Position numbers and translations under genes: made by a program. Shown here piece by piece: positions 3,325-59,309 of a stretch of 64,000 nt of DNA (position 1 is the first letter of the stretch; every line of letters starts with the position of its first letter). The DNA is from Methanomassiliicoccales archaeon LGM-RCC1 (GTDB lineage: Archaea; Thermoplasmatota; Thermoplasmata; Methanomassiliicoccales; Methanomethylophilaceae): contig CP115555.1 in the NCBI GenBank assembly GCA_030168575.1, positions 868,001 through 932,000 on the forward strand, written 5' to 3'. The notes beneath the pieces are model-generated. The model had not been told where the DNA came from, did not search any database, and was given only the letters and a program-made list of their open reading frames with translations.

Positions 3325-3450
3325 TGGTTGACAGCGTGCCTGAGTTCCCGTACGCTTGCGCAATACAGTACAGACAGGTACGCGGGAGGGCTTTACTGCC
3401 GGGTTCGGAATGGGACCGGGTGTGACTCCTCCGCTATGGCCGTCATACCA
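3325..3450 (-). rRNA. 5S ribosomal RNA
   Basis: The minus strand carries the canonical 5S core: GGCCATAGCGG, CCCGGTCCCATTCCGAACCCGG, and the helix IV/V region ending GGGAACTCAGGCACGC. The terminal helix I is TGGT..GACGG (3450-3440) paired with CTGTC.ACCA (3335-3325), which sets the approximate ends; they could be off by a few bases. It stands alone with no 16S or 23S gene nearby and has its own TATA box. Unlinked 5S genes are known in the Thermoplasmata and related lineages. Confidence 0.95.
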
Positions 3451-8364: not shown

Positions 8365-9543
8365 TCAAATGCTTTCCTTGACTGCGGCCACCAATGCTGA
8401 CAGGACCTCGTCAGCTTTCTCCACGTCGGGGACTCCTCCCTGTGCGAAGTCGGGCTTCCCTCCGCCGCGTCCTCCGAACCTTCCCAGGACGTCTGAGATG
8501 ACGGCCTTGCAATCTACCTTCGGGTTTCCGGATGCGAGCATGACCGACAGTGTCTCCGACACGGATACGAATGCTCCGATACCGCCTTTGGATCTGATCG
8601 ATTCCATGGTGTCGTTCATGACATTCCTGTCCGCTCCAGGAAGGATGGCCGAGTACAGAGCTGTGCCGTTGACGTCCTCCGGCGAGAGATGCGACACCAT
8701 CCTCTTGGTAGCATCCCTCAGGAGCCTGTTCTTGACCTCCAGCTCCTGCTTCATGTTGGATACGGCCTTCGCTGCATCCTCGTTCTTGCAGCCTATGACA
8801 TCGATGACCTCCAACGCTACGTTGGACAGTGCTACTGCAGATTGCTTGGCGGCCTCTCCGACCTTGAAGTGGATCTCGTATCCTTCCTTTCCGGCCTTTA
8901 CCTTGCGGTCGACGACCAGCATCTCCAGTTCGGATGTCTCTAGGACGTGCACCCCGCTGCATGCGGAATAGTCGATATCGCCTATGGCGACGACGGTGAT
9001 CTCCTCATCCTCTCCGATCCTGTCCAGCTTGATCCTGACCTTCTCCAGTTCCGGATCGTCCCTGTCCATGATGCTGTGGGTGATGGAATGGTTGTCCCTG
9101 ATGGCCTGGTTGGCGAAGTCCTCGGCCTTCCTGATCTGCTCCCAGGTCAGGTCCCTGTCCACGATGACGTACTTGGTCTCAGGCGAGATGAAGATCTTCA
9201 CGATGCTGAGCTCCTCGCACTGCCTCTTCAGTGAACCGAAGAGCAGATGCTCCCCTGTGTGGCCCTGCATGAGGTCGTAGCGTCTGTTCCAGTCCACCTG
9301 GCACCAAACGGTGTCGCCGACGTGGAGATCGTTCCCTGGGCACTTGTGGACGATGTCATTGTCCTTGTTGTATGAGACTTCGGTGACCTTGCAGTTGGCG
9401 ATGCTGCCGGTATCGCAGACCTGGCCGCCCCCGCCGGGGTAGAATGCTGTGCAGTCGAGGATAACATCGTCCCCATCCACAGCGGCAACATGTGCCTCGA
9501 AGTCGAAAATGTACCCATCATGCCTGAAGATCTCGTCGGTCAT
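8365..9543 (-). CDS. alaX: Alanyl-tRNA editing protein AlaX-L
   Basis: Free-standing editing hydrolase that removes Ser or Gly from mischarged tRNA-Ala. The zinc-binding pair is visible as HTGEH (~residue 95) and CSGVH (~residue 195), the signature of the AlaRS second additional domain. The long form also carries a C-terminal DHHA1-like domain with the GGRGGGKPDFAQGG motif. 392 residues fits AlaX-L rather than the short AlaX forms. It is not full AlaRS because it lacks the aminoacylation domain. A decayed duplicate of its first ~25 codons lies at 10122-10200. Confidence 0.92.
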   Translation of the reverse strand: MTDEIFRHDGYIFDFEAHVAAVDGDDVILDCTAFYPGGGGQVCDTGSIANCKVTEVSYNKDNDIVHKCPGNDLHVGDTVWCQVDWNRRYDLMQGHTGEHLLFGSLKRQCEELSIVKIFISPETKYVIVDRDLTWEQIRKAEDFANQAIRDNHSITHSIMDRDDPELEKVRIKLDRIGEDEEITVVAIGDIDYSACSGVHVLETSELEMLVVDRKVKAGKEGYEIHFKVGEAAKQSAVALSNVALEVIDVIGCKNEDAAKAVSNMKQELEVKNRLLRDATKRMVSHLSPEDVNGTALYSAILPGADRNVMNDTMESIRSKGGIGAFVSVSETLSVMLASGNPKVDCKAVISDVLGRFGGRGGGKPDFAQGGVPDVEKADEVLSALVAAVKESI

Positions 9544-9673
9544 CGTATCGGATTTCGCGGATGCGGTCGGTTCTAATAAAACAGATGGTCATCCGACTAT
9601 AGGTCTGTAACTAACGTGAGATAATCAAGAATGACAGGTAGATTCTATAACCATGCATTGCATTCGTGCCTTT

Positions 9674-10063
9674 ATGATCTGCCCAAACTGTGGAAGACAA
9701 ATGAGTGATGGAGAATTATTCTGCACTGGGTGTGGGATGAGGTTGAACAACGCACCAGGCTATGGGGCAGCCCCCATATATTCAGCACCACCAGTATATG
9801 ATGCACAGAATCAGCAAAACGACCCTGATAAGCCTGTCAATCCATCCAAGGCAGTCCCGTTGATATTGGGATTTTTCTTTGGTCTTTTTGGAGTATTATT
9901 GGCAGTGCTCACGTACAACGGGAACTATGGGAAGTACACCCGTAATCCAACGGTGAACGCATTGTTATGGAGTATAATCGGAACATTGATCCAGATACCT
10001 ATAATTCTCGCGTTATACTACCTGGTAATAATGCCCATGATTTCCAGTTTGTTCGGTATGTGA
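9674..10063 (+). CDS. Zinc-ribbon membrane protein, function unknown
   Basis: A 129-residue protein with an N-terminal zinc ribbon (CPNCG at residues 3-7 and CTGCG at ~19-23), a Pro/Tyr/Gln-rich linker, then two hydrophobic segments (residues ~63-85 and ~102-124). The same plan occurs at 21625-22509. I start at ATG 9674 rather than 9653 because CTATAAC near 9645 would place transcription at this ATG. The second-ribbon Cys spacing is intact. It appears to have come to lie between alaX and a broken copy of the alaX 5' end. Confidence 0.7.
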   Translation: MICPNCGRQMSDGELFCTGCGMRLNNAPGYGAAPIYSAPPVYDAQNQQNDPDKPVNPSKAVPLILGFFFGLFGVLLAVLTYNGNYGKYTRNPTVNALLWSIIGTLIQIPIILALYYLVIMPMISSLFGM

Positions 10064-10108: not shown

Positions 10109-10135
10109 GGCTGTGGATGGAGACACCATCCACAG
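10109..10135. repeat. Perfect 11-bp inverted repeat
   Basis: GCTGTGGATGG (10109-10119) and CCATCCACAGC (10125-10135) form a perfect stem with a five-base loop. The right arm belongs to the alaX-like fragment, so the palindrome may be a duplication scar or may act as a terminator for the zinc-ribbon gene. Confidence 0.55.
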
Positions 10136-10200
10136 CGGTCATATGTGTTTCTAAGTCGAATGTACCCGTCATGCCTGAAGATCTCGTTGCTACCGCATCT
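10122..10200 (-). pseudogene. Decayed duplicate of the alaX 5' end
   Basis: Bases 10122-10200 align with 9471-9551, covering the first ~24 codons of alaX and its start region, at roughly 75-80% identity, including the shared blocks CCATCCACAGCGG and TCATGCCTGAAGATCTCGT. A two-base gap (GTCGA-ATG versus GTCGAAAATG) breaks the frame and the ATG is lost, so it is not functional. It implies a local duplication of ~0.6 kb that bracketed the zinc-ribbon gene. Confidence 0.7.
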
Positions 10201-10325
10201 GTCCTTGCGATATAGAATCGGATAACGAGGGTGATGACATGATAGTTTACAGCGACTTTTTGTGAATTCTCAAGGATAGCATTATATCCTCATATGAAAT
10301 CGATACAATGTTCCTGAAGGATTTA

Positions 10326-10533
10326 GGCCCCTGAAGGGGCCTTGGTTCTCAAAGGAACCATCTTAGCAATTCGGACATTGTCCGGATTGCCGAGAGGACG
10401 AGGGAAACGAATTCGAACTTGGTTCCCCTGTCCTCTTCCTTTGCAGGTATTTAATCACCTCCTAAGGATTAGGTACGGGCAAACAGTCCGGTCGCGATAG
10501 GAAGTCCTTCGCGACGGACTTCCTTCCCCGCCC
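10326..10533 (-). ncRNA. Candidate hairpin-rich non-coding RNA upstream of aspS
   Basis: No gene fits here, but the DNA is a chain of hairpins. Reading leftward from a predicted start near 10533: GGAAGTCC/GGACTTCC (10500-10523; an overlapping alternative pairs GTCGCGA with TCGCGAC); GAGGAC..GGGAA/TTCCC..GTCCTC (10394-10435); a 10-bp stem at 10367-10389; TGGTTC/GAACCA (10343-10360); and GGCCCC/GGGGCC (10326-10341), which could terminate it. A TATA box at 10554-10563 preceded by an element shared with 58.9 kb suggests minus-strand transcription. No RNase P, SRP or T-box motif was found. Strand and ends are inferred. The remaining 10201-10325 shows nothing I recognise. Confidence 0.45.
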
Positions 10534-10553
10534 ATTAGGATACTGGGGTTTCC

Positions 10554-10611
10554 AAGATTTAATGACCATAAGGGCTTTCTACGGTCTATAGATTGCGACC
10601 CCCTGGCCGTT
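10554..10611 (-). promoter_or_regulatory. Shared promoter element, copy B (upstream of candidate ncRNA)
   Basis: Bases 10561-10611 align without gaps to 58901-58951: 37 of 51 identical, and 32 of 41 outside the first ten. The blocks GCTTTCTA and TCTATAGATTG are invariant. In both copies a minus-strand TATA-like ATTAAAT or ATTATAT sits at the same end. At the other locus this TATA is ~25 bases from the start codon of a regulator gene, so the analogous start here is near 10533. Confidence 0.55.
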
Positions 10612-55026: not shown

Positions 55027-56148
55027 ATGCCAGAGGAATTCACTGTCACCCCATGGGAGGTCAAGGGGGACATCGACTACGACCTGCTGATGCAGAAGTT
55101 CGGAACCAGTCCGATAGACGATGCCCTCATGGACAGGCTGTCCACGTACGGCGACCTCCACCCGATGCTCAAGCGCGGTATATTCTACACCCACCGCGAC
55201 ATGCTCTGGCTGCTGAACGAGTACGACAAGGGGAACAGGTTTACGATCTACACCGGGAGGGGACCCTCAGGGAACACCCATCTCGGACACCTGATGCCGT
55301 GGATGTTCAACAAGTGGATGCAGGACACGTTCGGCGTGAACATGATCTTCCAGATGACCAACGACGAGAAGTTCCTGTTCAAGGACATGGAGCTGAAGGA
55401 GACCACCGACATGGCCTACCAGAACGCCCTGGACTTCATAGCGCTGGGATTCGATCCCAAGAAGACGAGGATCATCGTCAACACGAAGAACATCGACAAG
55501 CTGTACCCGATCGCCCTGAGTGTGGCGAAGAAGGTCACCTTCTCCACCGCCAAGGCGGTGTTCGGATTCGACAACTCCACGAACATCGGATCGATATTCT
55601 TCACCGCCATGCAGTCGGCCCCGGCGTTCCTGCCCTCGGTCGATGCAGGTAAACAGGTGCCCGTGGTCATTCCCTGTGGTATCGACCAGGATCCCCACTT
55701 CAGGGTCTGCAGGGACGTCGCTCCGGGGTTGGGATTCCCCAAGCCCTCGCTGATCTGCTGCAAGATGATGCCTGGCCTTTCCGGCGGGGACAAGATGTCA
55801 TCCTCGGACGAGAACGCCACCATATACACCACCGATACCCCCAAGCAGGTCAAGAAGAAGGTCGGCAGGGCTTTCACCGGCGGATGCGTCAGCGTGGAGG
55901 AGCAGAGGGAGAAGGGCGGAAACCCCGAGGTCTGCGCCGTATTCAAGTACAACTACTACATGTTCGAGCACGACGATGCCGAACTGAACGAGATGGCACG
56001 CAAGTGCCGCAGCGGAGAGGTGCTCTGCGGGGAATGCAAGATGTGCCTCACCGAGAAGATCAATGTCTTCCTCGAGCAGCATCAGGACAAGAGGGAGAAG
56101 GCAAAGGACGTCATCGCGGAGATGGCGTACGACGGATTCGAATGGTGA
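55027..56148 (+). CDS. trpS: Tryptophanyl-tRNA synthetase
   Basis: 373-residue archaeal/eukaryotic-type TrpRS (class I). HIGH-like motif GPSGNTHLGH (~residues 80-89), KMSSS in GGDKMSSSDEN (~256-266), the FTGGCVSVEEQREKGGNPEVCAVF segment and a Cys pair CGECKMC near the C-terminus. A TATA-like TTTATTAATA at ~54992 gives a leaderless start. Followed by pheS after four bases. Confidence 0.96.
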   Translation: MPEEFTVTPWEVKGDIDYDLLMQKFGTSPIDDALMDRLSTYGDLHPMLKRGIFYTHRDMLWLLNEYDKGNRFTIYTGRGPSGNTHLGHLMPWMFNKWMQDTFGVNMIFQMTNDEKFLFKDMELKETTDMAYQNALDFIALGFDPKKTRIIVNTKNIDKLYPIALSVAKKVTFSTAKAVFGFDNSTNIGSIFFTAMQSAPAFLPSVDAGKQVPVVIPCGIDQDPHFRVCRDVAPGLGFPKPSLICCKMMPGLSGGDKMSSSDENATIYTTDTPKQVKKKVGRAFTGGCVSVEEQREKGGNPEVCAVFKYNYYMFEHDDAELNEMARKCRSGEVLCGECKMCLTEKINVFLEQHQDKREKAKDVIAEMAYDGFEW

Positions 56149-56152
56149 TCCC

Positions 56153-57673
56153 ATGGTAAGCGCTGAGATTCTGGAAGGATTGAGCTACAACGAGAAGAGA
56201 CTGCTGCTGGCGCTGGGCGCCAGGGGAGGCTCCGCCTCTCCTGCGGAGCTCATAGCGGATAAGCAGTTCGGTCTGGAGGTCGAGGTCATGGGAGCCGCCT
56301 CCTGGCTGGAGTCCAAGGAGCTGGCTAGGATCACCGAGAGGGTGGAGAAGTTCATCGTCCTGACGGATGAATCCATAGTCTCCACCGGGCTTCCCGAGAG
56401 GACCGCGGTAGTGAAGATCAACGAAGCGGGCGGAAGGATGGACATGGACGCCCTCGCGGAGCAGATGCCCGGAGGAATGGACAAGGTCGCCGTCGGATGG
56501 CTTAAGAGGAAGGCATTGGCGGACATCGTCGCCGAGGGCGACAGGAAGTTCCTGGTGCTCACCGACAAGGGGAAGGCTGTGCTCAATGAGGAGATGCCCG
56601 AGGAGGCGTTCCTCAAGAGGCTGGCCGAGAACCCCGTGCCCGAAGCGGAGGCTGACAAGAACATCGTCAAGGACCTCAAGGGCAGGAAGGGAATGATCGG
56701 CGAGAAGGTCGTTACCGAGAGGAGCATCGCACTCACCGACCTCGGAAAGGAGGTCGCCAACTCAGGATTGGAGCTGAAGGAGGAGGTCACCGAGGTGACC
56801 GACCGTCTCATCCAGTCGGGAGAATGGAAGAACGCCGAGTTCAGGAAATACGACATACAGACGTTCGCTCCCGCTATCGTCCCTGCGAAGAAGCACCCGC
56901 TGTCCAGGCTCGGTGCGGAGATCCGCAGGATGTTCACCGACATGGGATTCACAGAGATGTCATCTGAGTACGTCCAGCCATCGTTCTGGAATCTCGATGT
57001 CCTCTTCACGCCGCAGGACCATCCCGCGAGGGACCTGCAGGATACATTCTATCTGGAGAGGCCGAAGGCCATCCACATCGACGACGAGGAGCTCGTCGCC
57101 AAGATCAAGGCGATCCACGAGAACGGCGGGGACACCGGTTCCACTGGATGGGGAGGCAAATGGTCCAGGGAGATGGCGGAGTCCGCGCTCCTCAGGACGC
57201 ACAGCACCTGCTCGTCCATCAGGTACATCGCGGCCCATCCGGATGCACCGCAGAAGGCGTTCTCGATATCCAGGATATTCAGGAACGAATCCATCGATTC
57301 CACCCATCTTCCGGAGTTCACCCAGATCGAGGGAATCGTCATCGACGAGAAGGCGGACTTCAACATGCTGATCTCGATGATCAAGGAGTTCTACAGCAAG
57401 ATGGGATTCGACCAGATCCGCATCCGTCCGGCGTACTTCCCGTACACCGAGCCGTCGCTGGAGATAGAGGTCTTCTTCAACGGAAAGTGGATGGAGCTCG
57501 GAGGAGCGGGCATGTTCAGGCCAGAGGTCCTGGCGCCGTTCGGAGTCAAGACGCCTGTGCTCGCATGGGGATTCGGATTCGAGAGGCTCGCCATGCTGAA
57601 ATGGGACATCAGGGACATCAGGGACCTGTACATCTCCGACATCGACACCCTCAAGAAGAACACCGTGTTCTGA
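56153..57673 (+). CDS. pheS: Phenylalanyl-tRNA synthetase alpha subunit
   Basis: 506-residue archaeal-type PheRS alpha chain (class II). N-terminal winged-helix DNA/RNA-binding repeats (~residues 1-190), then the catalytic core: HPLSRLGAEIRRMFTDMGF (~245-263), motif 2 SISRIFRNESIDSTHLPEFTQIEG (~365-388) and motif 3 ending AWGFGFERLAMLKW (~470-483). The start is ATG 56153; an upstream in-frame extension lies inside trpS. Its 3' end faces a leftward gene whose frame reads into it. No pheT lies nearby. Confidence 0.96.
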   Translation: MVSAEILEGLSYNEKRLLLALGARGGSASPAELIADKQFGLEVEVMGAASWLESKELARITERVEKFIVLTDESIVSTGLPERTAVVKINEAGGRMDMDALAEQMPGGMDKVAVGWLKRKALADIVAEGDRKFLVLTDKGKAVLNEEMPEEAFLKRLAENPVPEAEADKNIVKDLKGRKGMIGEKVVTERSIALTDLGKEVANSGLELKEEVTEVTDRLIQSGEWKNAEFRKYDIQTFAPAIVPAKKHPLSRLGAEIRRMFTDMGFTEMSSEYVQPSFWNLDVLFTPQDHPARDLQDTFYLERPKAIHIDDEELVAKIKAIHENGGDTGSTGWGGKWSREMAESALLRTHSTCSSIRYIAAHPDAPQKAFSISRIFRNESIDSTHLPEFTQIEGIVIDEKADFNMLISMIKEFYSKMGFDQIRIRPAYFPYTEPSLEIEVFFNGKWMELGGAGMFRPEVLAPFGVKTPVLAWGFGFERLAMLKWDIRDIRDLYISDIDTLKKNTVF

Positions 57674-58873
57674 GGGCACGTAATCCGAGACCATATCCAT
57701 CAGCACTGATAGGATTATCTTCCTGTCATGGTTGCGGCTGAGACGAAGGGCGCTGTTCAGGAGCTCCTTGGCGCATTCGCTGTTGCCAAGCTCCATCTCT
57801 ATCACCGCTTCCCAGCGGAGGAGCTCGTCCATGCGGAAGATGCAGCCTTCGTCCAGCATCCTCTTTCTCGTTGATTCAAGGACCTTCAGAGCGTCGATAT
57901 AGCGGCAGTTGGCGTAAAGGCAGAGGCCGAGGACCATACCTGAATCGATATCGACAATTCCCCGGGCCGACGCCAGGGAGAGGGCCTCCCTGATCCTGTC
58001 GGATCTCAGTAACACTTCGCACATCAGAGAATATCCAAGGCACGGATCGGATTCGATTATCTTCGGCACCATCTCAGAAGCGGTCTCCAACCCGCCCGTA
58101 TCCAAGGCCATCCTCGCTGCCATCGGCAGCAGGTCGGAACGTCCGTTCCTCATCACCATCTTGGATACAACCGCGGATAGGTCCCGGTCCGAATGGTCCA
58201 CTATGTCAAACGTATGTTCGGTCAGCAGCCTCAGTGCTTCCCTATCCCTGTTGGACATCCCCAGATGATACACCCTTTCCGATATCGGGCATCCATGGTC
58301 CAGGCACCAGTCGGCAGCCATGCTGTGCCATTCCGTCTGCTTATCCTTCGGACTTATCTTGAGCAGCTTGGTCCTGAATGCCGCCTGGACGGTCGCTTCC
58401 CCATTCGGCCTCATCACTATCAGGGGGCTGGCGAACTTCACATCGGATGCCATGATCCGTGTGCGCAGCAGGCTCAGGCACCCGATGCAATCCAGTCGGT
58501 CCCCCAGATTCCTCCTGAGCGTATCGAAGTCCTTCGCATCCATGATCGAACAAAGGTCCAACAGCTCCACATCATCCTCCTTGAGGGACCTGATCCTGTC
58601 GGCGAGTATCTTCTTCCCGGTGTCGGTGATGTGATACACCTTCCTCTTTGCAGGACGGTTCGACTTCTTTATGCTGGCGAATGAGAACACGACCTCGTTG
58701 GATTCGATCATCCTTCTCAGAATGATGCTGACATGGGACCTGGTGATCCCGACGGACACCGCTATGCCGTCCTGAGTGATCTCCGAGGGGGCGTCGTAAT
58801 CGATGTCGTATCTCAGGTGCCTGTAGTTGAATAGGTGGGCGAGGATCTTGTCGTGGTATGAAACGCGTTCCAT
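56960..58873 (-). CDS. Winged-helix regulator with helical repeats; frame reads through into antisense of pheS
   Basis: The first ~400 codons (58873-57674) look like real protein: an N-terminal winged helix (residues ~1-90: ITQDGIAVSVGITRSHVSIILRRMIESNEVVFSF), then helical TPR-like repeats (~150-395: EALRLLTEHTF, AARMALDTGGLETASEMV, ALKVLESTRKRML, ECAKELLNSALRLS). No stop follows until 56960, so the last ~237 codons are antisense to pheS and look like shadow sequence (EHRRLDSERRQDLWPEH). The original 3' end has probably been lost. ATG 58873 has a TATA at 58894-58902, preceded by the 51-bp shared element, so the mRNA is likely leaderless. Confidence 0.65.
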   Translation of the reverse strand: MERVSYHDKILAHLFNYRHLRYDIDYDAPSEITQDGIAVSVGITRSHVSIILRRMIESNEVVFSFASIKKSNRPAKRKVYHITDTGKKILADRIRSLKEDDVELLDLCSIMDAKDFDTLRRNLGDRLDCIGCLSLLRTRIMASDVKFASPLIVMRPNGEATVQAAFRTKLLKISPKDKQTEWHSMAADWCLDHGCPISERVYHLGMSNRDREALRLLTEHTFDIVDHSDRDLSAVVSKMVMRNGRSDLLPMAARMALDTGGLETASEMVPKIIESDPCLGYSLMCEVLLRSDRIREALSLASARGIVDIDSGMVLGLCLYANCRYIDALKVLESTRKRMLDEGCIFRMDELLRWEAVIEMELGNSECAKELLNSALRLSRNHDRKIILSVLMDMVSDYVPSEHGVLLEGVDVGDVQVPDVPDVPFQHGEPLESESPCEHRRLDSERRQDLWPEHARSSELHPLSVEEDLYLQRRLGVREVRRTDADLVESHLAVELLDHRDQHVEVRLLVDDDSLDLGELRKMGGIDGFVPEYPGYRERLLRCIRMGRDVPDGRAGAVRPEERGLRHLPGPFASPSSGTGVPAVLVDRLDLGDELLVVDVDGLRPLQIECILQVPRGMVLRREEDIEIPERWLDVLR

Positions 58874-58893: not shown

Positions 58894-58951
58894 AGAATAT
58901 AATGGGGGCAACCGCTTTCTAGCATCTATAGATTGAAACCCCTTGGGCGTT
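58894..58951 (-). promoter_or_regulatory. Shared promoter element, copy A (upstream of winged-helix/repeat gene)
   Basis: Minus-strand TATA-like ATTATATTC at 58894-58902 is ~25 bases from the ATG at 58873. Immediately upstream, 58901-58951 matches 10561-10611 without gaps (37 of 51), including GCTTTCTA and TCTATAGATTG. The position just above TATA is where an archaeal activator or repressor would bind. The core ends GATTGAAAC, which resembles a CRISPR repeat end, but there is no array. Confidence 0.55.
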
Positions 58952-59309
58952 TGAAGGGCTGTGAGCATTCGAGGAGGAACGGCGTCACGTCTTCATTCTA
59001 AAGTCGGGGGCCGTCTTTTATTCGGAGAATCGCCTGATAGCAATATTCATTTCCGAACAAGTTCTCAGACGAGAGGGTCCGATGCCCAGCACCGGAAGTC
59101 CTGTGCACCGGACTTCCTGCTCCTCTGGCAGATCACCATCTAACGGAGCGTATAAGGCTAAGAAGGGGAGGTGGCCGAATGTGGACCTGGAGCCGTAATT
59201 TTAAGGATCTAAGATTCTCCGAAAAACCGCAAAAATGGCTGAAAAGGCCCGACTGAAAGTGAAAATCGAATCGGAACCCATTTTATCCCATCACACGGTT
59301 CCTTGAGGC
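58952..59309 (-). ncRNA. Intergenic region with a second GGAAGTCC hairpin; candidate leftward RNA from ~59127
   Basis: No gene is supported here. GGAAGTCC (59094-59101) and GGACTTCC (59110-59117) form an 8-bp stem around TGTGCACC; flanking AGCA/TGCT extends it on the minus strand. A minus-strand TATA-like CCTTATAC (59150-59157) predicts a start near 59127, putting the hairpin at +10, exactly as in the candidate RNA at 10.5 kb (loop TTCGCGAC there). Sequence outside the hairpin differs. A plus-strand TATA-like TTTTATCC at ~59280 serves dtdA. Confidence 0.35.

Follow-up and report, generated by a model that had tools for sequence, protein, structure and literature searches.

In Hok/Sok, a metastable 5' hairpin of the nascent mRNA yields to a stable fold, Ldr/Rdl and Ibs/Sib are tandem intergenic repeats with short hydrophobic peptides and an opposed antisense promoter, and TisB/IstR-1 of E. 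coli has a structured toxin mRNA and an RNA antitoxin; the gene family described here, with its antisense promoter and RNA antitoxin as predictions, resembles all of these. TisB, as described in PMC11449926 and PMC11997105, is an amphipathic membrane helix of ~29 residues with charged residues, which is a further likeness to the family. PMC12390103 gives a hydrophobic peptide plus an antisense RNA as the standard type I toxin-antitoxin layout, and states that before the cyanobacterial case type I systems were known from Proteobacteria, Firmicutes, and Tenericutes only. That case, msoT1/msoA1 of Microcystis, is a likeness insofar as type I systems were recently extended to a new phylum, although it is bacterial and laboratory-tested and its peptide is unrelated to ours. 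We found no archaeal type I system in the open-licence literature.

The locus in question lies in a 64-kb stretch of a Methanomassiliicoccales genome (the window) and differs from each of these systems. Compared with TisB/IstR-1, the family has no homology to curated toxin models, archaeal promoters, hairpins placed inside codons, mostly non-AUG starts, a predicted antisense promoter directly behind the gene, and many tandem copies. Compared with Ldr/Rdl and Ibs/Sib, it has another peptide, belongs to another domain of life, and contains dual-coded hairpins, with no homology detected. Unlike Hok/Sok, it is chromosomal, its arms and peptide are different, and its folding kinetics are only what we infer from the pairings.

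A folded message with a reading frame inside its hairpins

The original prediction described a leftward start at ~10533 that begins no gene and is followed by a run of strong hairpins. The hairpins were borne out, as the minus-strand RNA 10533-10324 has a predicted folding energy of -105.9 kcal/mol versus -68.6 ± 5.0 kcal/mol in shuffled sequences (z = -7.5). The absence of a gene was not, since a 33-codon ORF is present there and was overlooked by standard ORF calling because its start is non-AUG. The features of the locus are as follows:

10557-10564, minus strand: TATA-like box (ATTAAATC) for the mRNA, whose start is predicted at ~10533, within a family-wide peak of such boxes
10500-10523, minus strand: 5' hairpin AB (GGAAGTCC ... 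GGACTTCC), an exact palindrome with covariation
10485-10497, minus strand: arm C (TCGCGACCGGACT), which vies with arm B for pairing to arm A (its 3' half and loop)
10454-10462, minus strand: Shine-Dalgarno sequence (GGAGGTGAT), 5 nt 5' of the ATA start
10349-10450, minus strand: short ORF of 33 codons plus TGA with an ATA start, read directly as peptide IPAKEEDRGTKFEFVSLVLSAIRTMSELLRWFL
10393-10436, minus strand: hairpin A within the ORF, KDQ-type codons paired with LVL codons, from covariation and fold
10365-10391, minus strand: hairpin B within the ORF, AIR ... SEL codons, from covariation
10343-10360, minus strand: stop-codon hairpin (TGGTTC ... GAACCA), from the fold, with similar ones seen by eye in relatives
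10325-10342, minus strand: 3' hairpin (GGCCCCTTCAGGGGCC), from the fold, a possible transcript end
10281-10288, plus strand: TATA-like box (ATTATATC) for a predicted antisense RNA, which would enter the gene from its 3' side

An in-frame TAA immediately precedes the ATA, so that translation has to begin at the ATA or further downstream. Homologues share the layout found on the window's minus strand, namely a 5' hairpin, then GGAGGTGAT, then an ORF lacking ATG. GGAGGT was found in most family copies, and the Shine-Dalgarno sequence is invariant across an alignment of 43 sequences, whose members were selected for having one. Among 71 copies with a Shine-Dalgarno sequence, the start codon is ATG in 15, GTG or TTG in 3, and CTG, ATC, or ATA in 34, with none recognizable in the remaining 19. 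Natural stops are TGA in 48/86 copies and TAA in 37/86, and almost never TAG.

Several statistics distinguish the ORF frame from the other two. Its pN/pS is 0.46, compared with 0.86 and 1.73 when the frame is shifted, and over a 24-codon stretch in-frame stops occur in 9 of 86 copies, the two alternative frames having them in 78/86 and 35/86. In a gapless block of 14 codons, the entropies of codon positions 1, 2, and 3 are 1.16, 0.80, and 1.49 bits, and in all six stem pairs that join a second to a third codon position, the third is the more variable. This asymmetry is telling of coding selection, because structure alone gives equal variability at paired positions. As judged from these sequence comparisons, the ORF frame is under purifying selection. 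The earlier view of the 10.5-kb RNA as non-coding must therefore be abandoned, since a conserved peptide ORF traverses the hairpins, and a purely non-coding RNA is likewise ruled out by the reading-frame statistics.

The peptide is ~30 residues long, with the consensus xxKKDQGxxxKLxLVLEAIRLLxELLR, and forms a predicted amphipathic helix in which Glu alternates with Arg (helical amphipathic moment 0.44 versus 0.25 in shuffled sequences). Given its charged residues, the helix may lie on a membrane rather than cross it. A family profile recovers the window peptide with E 4.6e-18, although the window peptide is itself one of the four profile sequences. There was no match in NCBIfam or to any known type I toxin model, Pfam returned a single weak and unrelated hit (E 0.18), the consensus peptide had no match in a phage collection, and pattern matches in viral contigs included no confirmed relative.

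In-frame TAG codons occur in L102:3845, L104, two copies each of L118, L136, and L150, and the L195 copy (contig 690667-690838), and thus in several lineages; most of them fall in the loop that joins the KDQ codons to the hydrophobic helix. TAG exceeds TAA and TGA only marginally. PylS is encoded in all five genomes that contain TAG-bearing copies, so pyrrolysine read-through is possible.

Covariation of the hairpins, which the original prediction had proposed as a check, proved strong. Across hairpins AB, A, and B, 90.9% of alignment cells are paired, and 100 cells are changed on both sides, compared with 29 ± 4.4 in shuffles and at most 31 when the partners are slid; related copies inflate such counts, and non-redundant subsets were used in most tests, although some phylogenetic dependence remains. 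Among 43 relatives, hairpin AB is 93% paired with both-side changes at 6 of its 8 pairs, and hairpin B is 87% paired with two-sided changes in 9 of 10. Within hairpin A, GAC/GTC (Asp, Val) is replaced by GGC/GCC (Gly, Ala) in several lineages with the hairpin kept, and KDQ is exchanged for QDK together with a swap of the corresponding Leu codons.

The leader contains a second, competing pairing. Arm C and the 3' half of arm A have 20 two-sided cells compared with 8.4 ± 2.2 in shuffles, and a strict test of the three-arm pattern was satisfied by 21/55 leaders, with 1.1 expected from shuffles. Arm A is unable to pair fully with B and C simultaneously, and the A-C rod is a component of the predicted minimum-energy leader. 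The rod is the predicted stable form of the leader, and AB would be the pairing able to form first. Sequestration of the Shine-Dalgarno sequence as a general feature is not supported, as its predicted accessibility (0.40) is about average for the transcript (mean 0.35). A GC-rich hairpin occupies the position of the 3' hairpin in most family copies; inspection of the window by eye showed no U tract or U-rich terminator after it. At gathering scores, Rfam yielded nothing at the locus or in 19 loci with copies, and a loose E-value gave nothing credible. One SAM-III match on the opposite strand scored 22.4 bits, far under the threshold of 45.

Distribution and genomic setting of the family

The first homologues were found by a longer DNA search of relatives in the same genus. 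Searching relatives directly for the exact palindrome was too strict, with hits in 3/41 genomes. A profile of four peptides matched 20 of the 31 genus genomes at a loose limit, a wider profile matched 26/147 genomes of the order at E ≤ 0.01, all from one taxonomic family, and a covariance model found more than 100 matches in 28 of the same 147. The family thus occurs in five genera of a single taxonomic family (Methanomethylophilaceae-like), and 300 genomes sampled from the class gave no match outside it. The relatives are mostly rumen and gut metagenome-assembled genomes (MAGs) of Methanomassiliicoccales/Methanomethylophilaceae, and copy numbers are lower bounds because many of these MAGs have copies at contig ends. 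Where examined, the copies occupy ordinary intergenic spaces in varied contexts, and ~20 tandem groups of same-strand copies were found across genomes. Copies in L122, L126, L108, and L109 have a different leader or no recognizable Shine-Dalgarno sequence, which suggests a diversity in the family beyond what the present model captures. These sequence data leave little room for doubt that this is a real family of structured, peptide-coding mRNAs, and the multi-copy family of gut methanogens is apparently undescribed.

The window genome has five copies. Besides the 10.4-kb copy and a 59-kb remnant, there are three at about 687-691 kb on the contig, including a tandem pair. The remnant is the second hairpin site of the original prediction:

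58994-59127, minus strand: decayed family copy with leader arms A, B, and C kept, the Shine-Dalgarno sequence lost, and the ORF truncated

The pattern GGAAGTCC-N4..12-GGACTTCC does occur exactly twice in the genome, at the two sites named earlier (10533 and ~59127), and the proposal that both hairpins belong to one RNA family is upheld by covariation and by the covariance model, which scores the 59.1-kb copy at 24.3 bits (E 0.002 for that genome). The proposal that the second is a regulatory RNA in its own right is not upheld. Comparison of conspecific genomes indicates that the 59.1-kb copy has drifted and the 10.4-kb copy is almost unchanged, and two other species (G003 and G012) have an intact or nearly intact copy at the same site and on the same strand, upstream of the winged-helix gene. 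The 59.1-kb hairpin is thus an orthologous copy in decay. The G003 copy contains a TGA within the helix.

The position of the G003 and G012 copies, directly 5' of a same-strand gene, would also suit a leader peptide, attenuator, or riboswitch controlling that gene, and a bistable leader, a short ORF, and a 3' hairpin would all be expected of such a device. We nevertheless regard this as very unlikely. The next gene leftward of the 10.4-kb copy is convergent (9653-10063, plus strand), and a same-strand downstream gene is a feature of the copies preceding the winged-helix gene only, the contexts being otherwise varied.

The 10.4-kb copy itself lies in a segment that is missing from relatives. 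In G007, G009, and G024, a gap of only ~100 bases divides the start of aspS from a DHHA1/alanyl-tRNA-synthetase-like gene that is divergent to it, whereas in the window more than 1 kb separates aspS from the DHHA1-domain gene and holds the family copy, a zinc-ribbon ORF, and a duplicated start of the DHHA1 gene. The two copies of this gene start (9473-9536 and 10126-10187, 86% identical) flank the zinc-ribbon ORF, and relatives have a single copy and no insertion before aspS. The 10.4-kb copy is thus probably a fairly recent, dispensable arrival. Elsewhere in the window, a lone 5S rRNA gene (3326-3447, minus strand, 84.9 bits) was found, with no 16S or 23S match.

A palindromic, multi-copy sequence that G007, G009, and G024 lack at the orthologous position might also be a small mobile element of the MITE or REP type whose ORF is a by-product of the palindrome. 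This account is highly improbable, as it conflicts with the coding-frame selection, the asymmetry between second and third codon positions within stems, and the near-invariance of the Shine-Dalgarno sequence; no terminal repeats or transposase were seen, and there was no Rfam match.

The shared promoter element and the winged-helix gene

The original prediction further linked the two loci through a promoter element, by which the winged-helix regulator would control both its own gene and a non-coding RNA at 10.5 kb. The features concerned are as follows:

10574-10601, minus strand: shared upstream promoter element, copy 1, core GGGTNNCAATCTATAGANNNTAGAAARC
58914-58941, minus strand: shared upstream promoter element, copy 2, 5' of the winged-helix gene
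56960-58873, minus strand: winged-helix/helical-repeat ORF of 637 aa, with weak winged-helix and TPR matches

The element is real. As originally described, positions 10561-10611 and 58901-58951 align without gaps at 37/51 identities, the rest of the 64-kb window staying below 30, and the 28-base core GGGTNNCAATCTATAGANNNTAGAAARC exceeds chance, with five copies in the 1.66-Mb genome and none in a reversed control. In all five copies, TAGAAA is followed after exactly 12 nt by an AT-rich octamer, and this fixed spacing points to a probable role as an operator or upstream promoter element. The three other copies lie 5' of a gene for an LRR surface protein and of two ~318-aa paralogues. The element likely provides a shared input to five promoters. 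The paralogues (L027:484-1440, minus strand, and L028:1586-2542, plus strand), which share the 28-base element and have no Pfam match, resemble Rpn-type (PD-(D/E)XK) proteins by eye, and a C-terminal-like fragment follows the second.

The proposed pairing of regulator and RNA found no support. Orthologues of the winged-helix gene are present in 31/31 genus genomes, whereas the element is limited to 2/31, both of the same species, and of the window genome's five family copies a single one has it upstream. A dedicated regulator-RNA pair is therefore not supported. In the genus genomes, the proposed search for element and hairpin showed the hairpin family in most, though not all, and the element in this species alone. 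Control by the winged-helix protein, acting at the 51-bp element, of both its own gene and a non-coding RNA would account for a genuine element at a fixed distance from the TATA box 5' of both genes, but the RNA is coding, the five targets are mostly unrelated, and the other family copies have no element, all of which make this reading most improbable.

The C-terminal third of the winged-helix ORF (56960-57673, minus strand) overlaps, in antisense, a PheS-like tRNA synthetase gene (56063-57673, plus strand; PF01409, E 2.7e-84). Since the two parts are split in several relatives, the winged-helix ORF probably ends near 57674 (gene 57674-58873).

Opposed TATA-like signals and a proposed toxin-antitoxin module

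Across the family, TATA-like matches peak 150-180 bases 5' of the LVL codons and again 100-130 bases 3' of them, as scored with weights set by hand to the textbook consensus. At the downstream peak, the mean best score is 5.73 in the antisense orientation (4.71 ± 0.12 in shuffles) and 5.23 in the sense orientation (4.79 ± 0.11). The antisense-oriented peak suggests an antisense RNA, although part of the signal possibly originates from sense promoters because TATA boxes are nearly palindromic (strong matches, 22% versus 42%).

Taken together, the amphipathic peptide, the folded message with competing 5' pairings, the predicted opposed promoter, and the tandem copies lead us to favor a family whose mode of action resembles that of a type I toxin-antitoxin module, with both the toxic activity and the antisense RNA being predictions, and we consider this reading somewhat probable. 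The short amphipathic peptide suits the part of a candidate type I toxin, and a structured mRNA with alternative folds is a type I trait that is common rather than strictly defining. Under this model, the mRNA would start near 10533, and the first-made hairpin AB would give way to the more stable A-C rod. With a perfect Shine-Dalgarno sequence but a non-AUG start codon, translation would initiate weakly, and the peptide would enter the membrane and slow or halt growth. An antisense RNA starting near 10310 on the other strand would cover the 3' end and the ORF, keeping the peptide off during normal growth. In this species, the 10.4-kb copy has also acquired the extra upstream element common to four other genes, probably as an added shared input.

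The chief competitor is a small conserved membrane peptide, harmless and lacking an RNA antitoxin, made from a regulated, structured mRNA of the stress-inducible or dual-function kind, with tandem copies serving dosage. Such a peptide would explain the coding and structural selection equally well, and its charged residues would permit a helper role at the membrane surface. We find it unlikely, however, as the antisense-oriented TATA peak is left unexplained and the variable copy number, the tandem arrays, the decayed copies, and the absence of the family from several genus genomes better suit a dispensable, selfish, or toxic element. Within the type I-like reading, a more specific version can be offered only tentatively. 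It would make this the first archaeal type I family, with a dual-coded toxin message whose codons themselves spell the hairpins required for control, so that paired base changes become paired residue changes, with non-AUG starts, and with TAG passage in several lineages making the peptide possibly pyrrolysine-dependent.

Genes of this kind are missed by ORF callers that accept only longer frames opening with ATG, GTG, or TTG. The family is also unusual in that its RNA pairing and its peptide sequence place limits on one another at the level of single codons, so that the balance of the two selections becomes measurable. If the type I-like reading is true, the family would be the first archaeal example of a layout so far known from bacteria, and the presence of over 100 copies among methanogens of gut and rumen would mean that the same solution is present, or has re-evolved, in Archaea. 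It would also provide a tractable growth-control element for methane-producing gut archaea.
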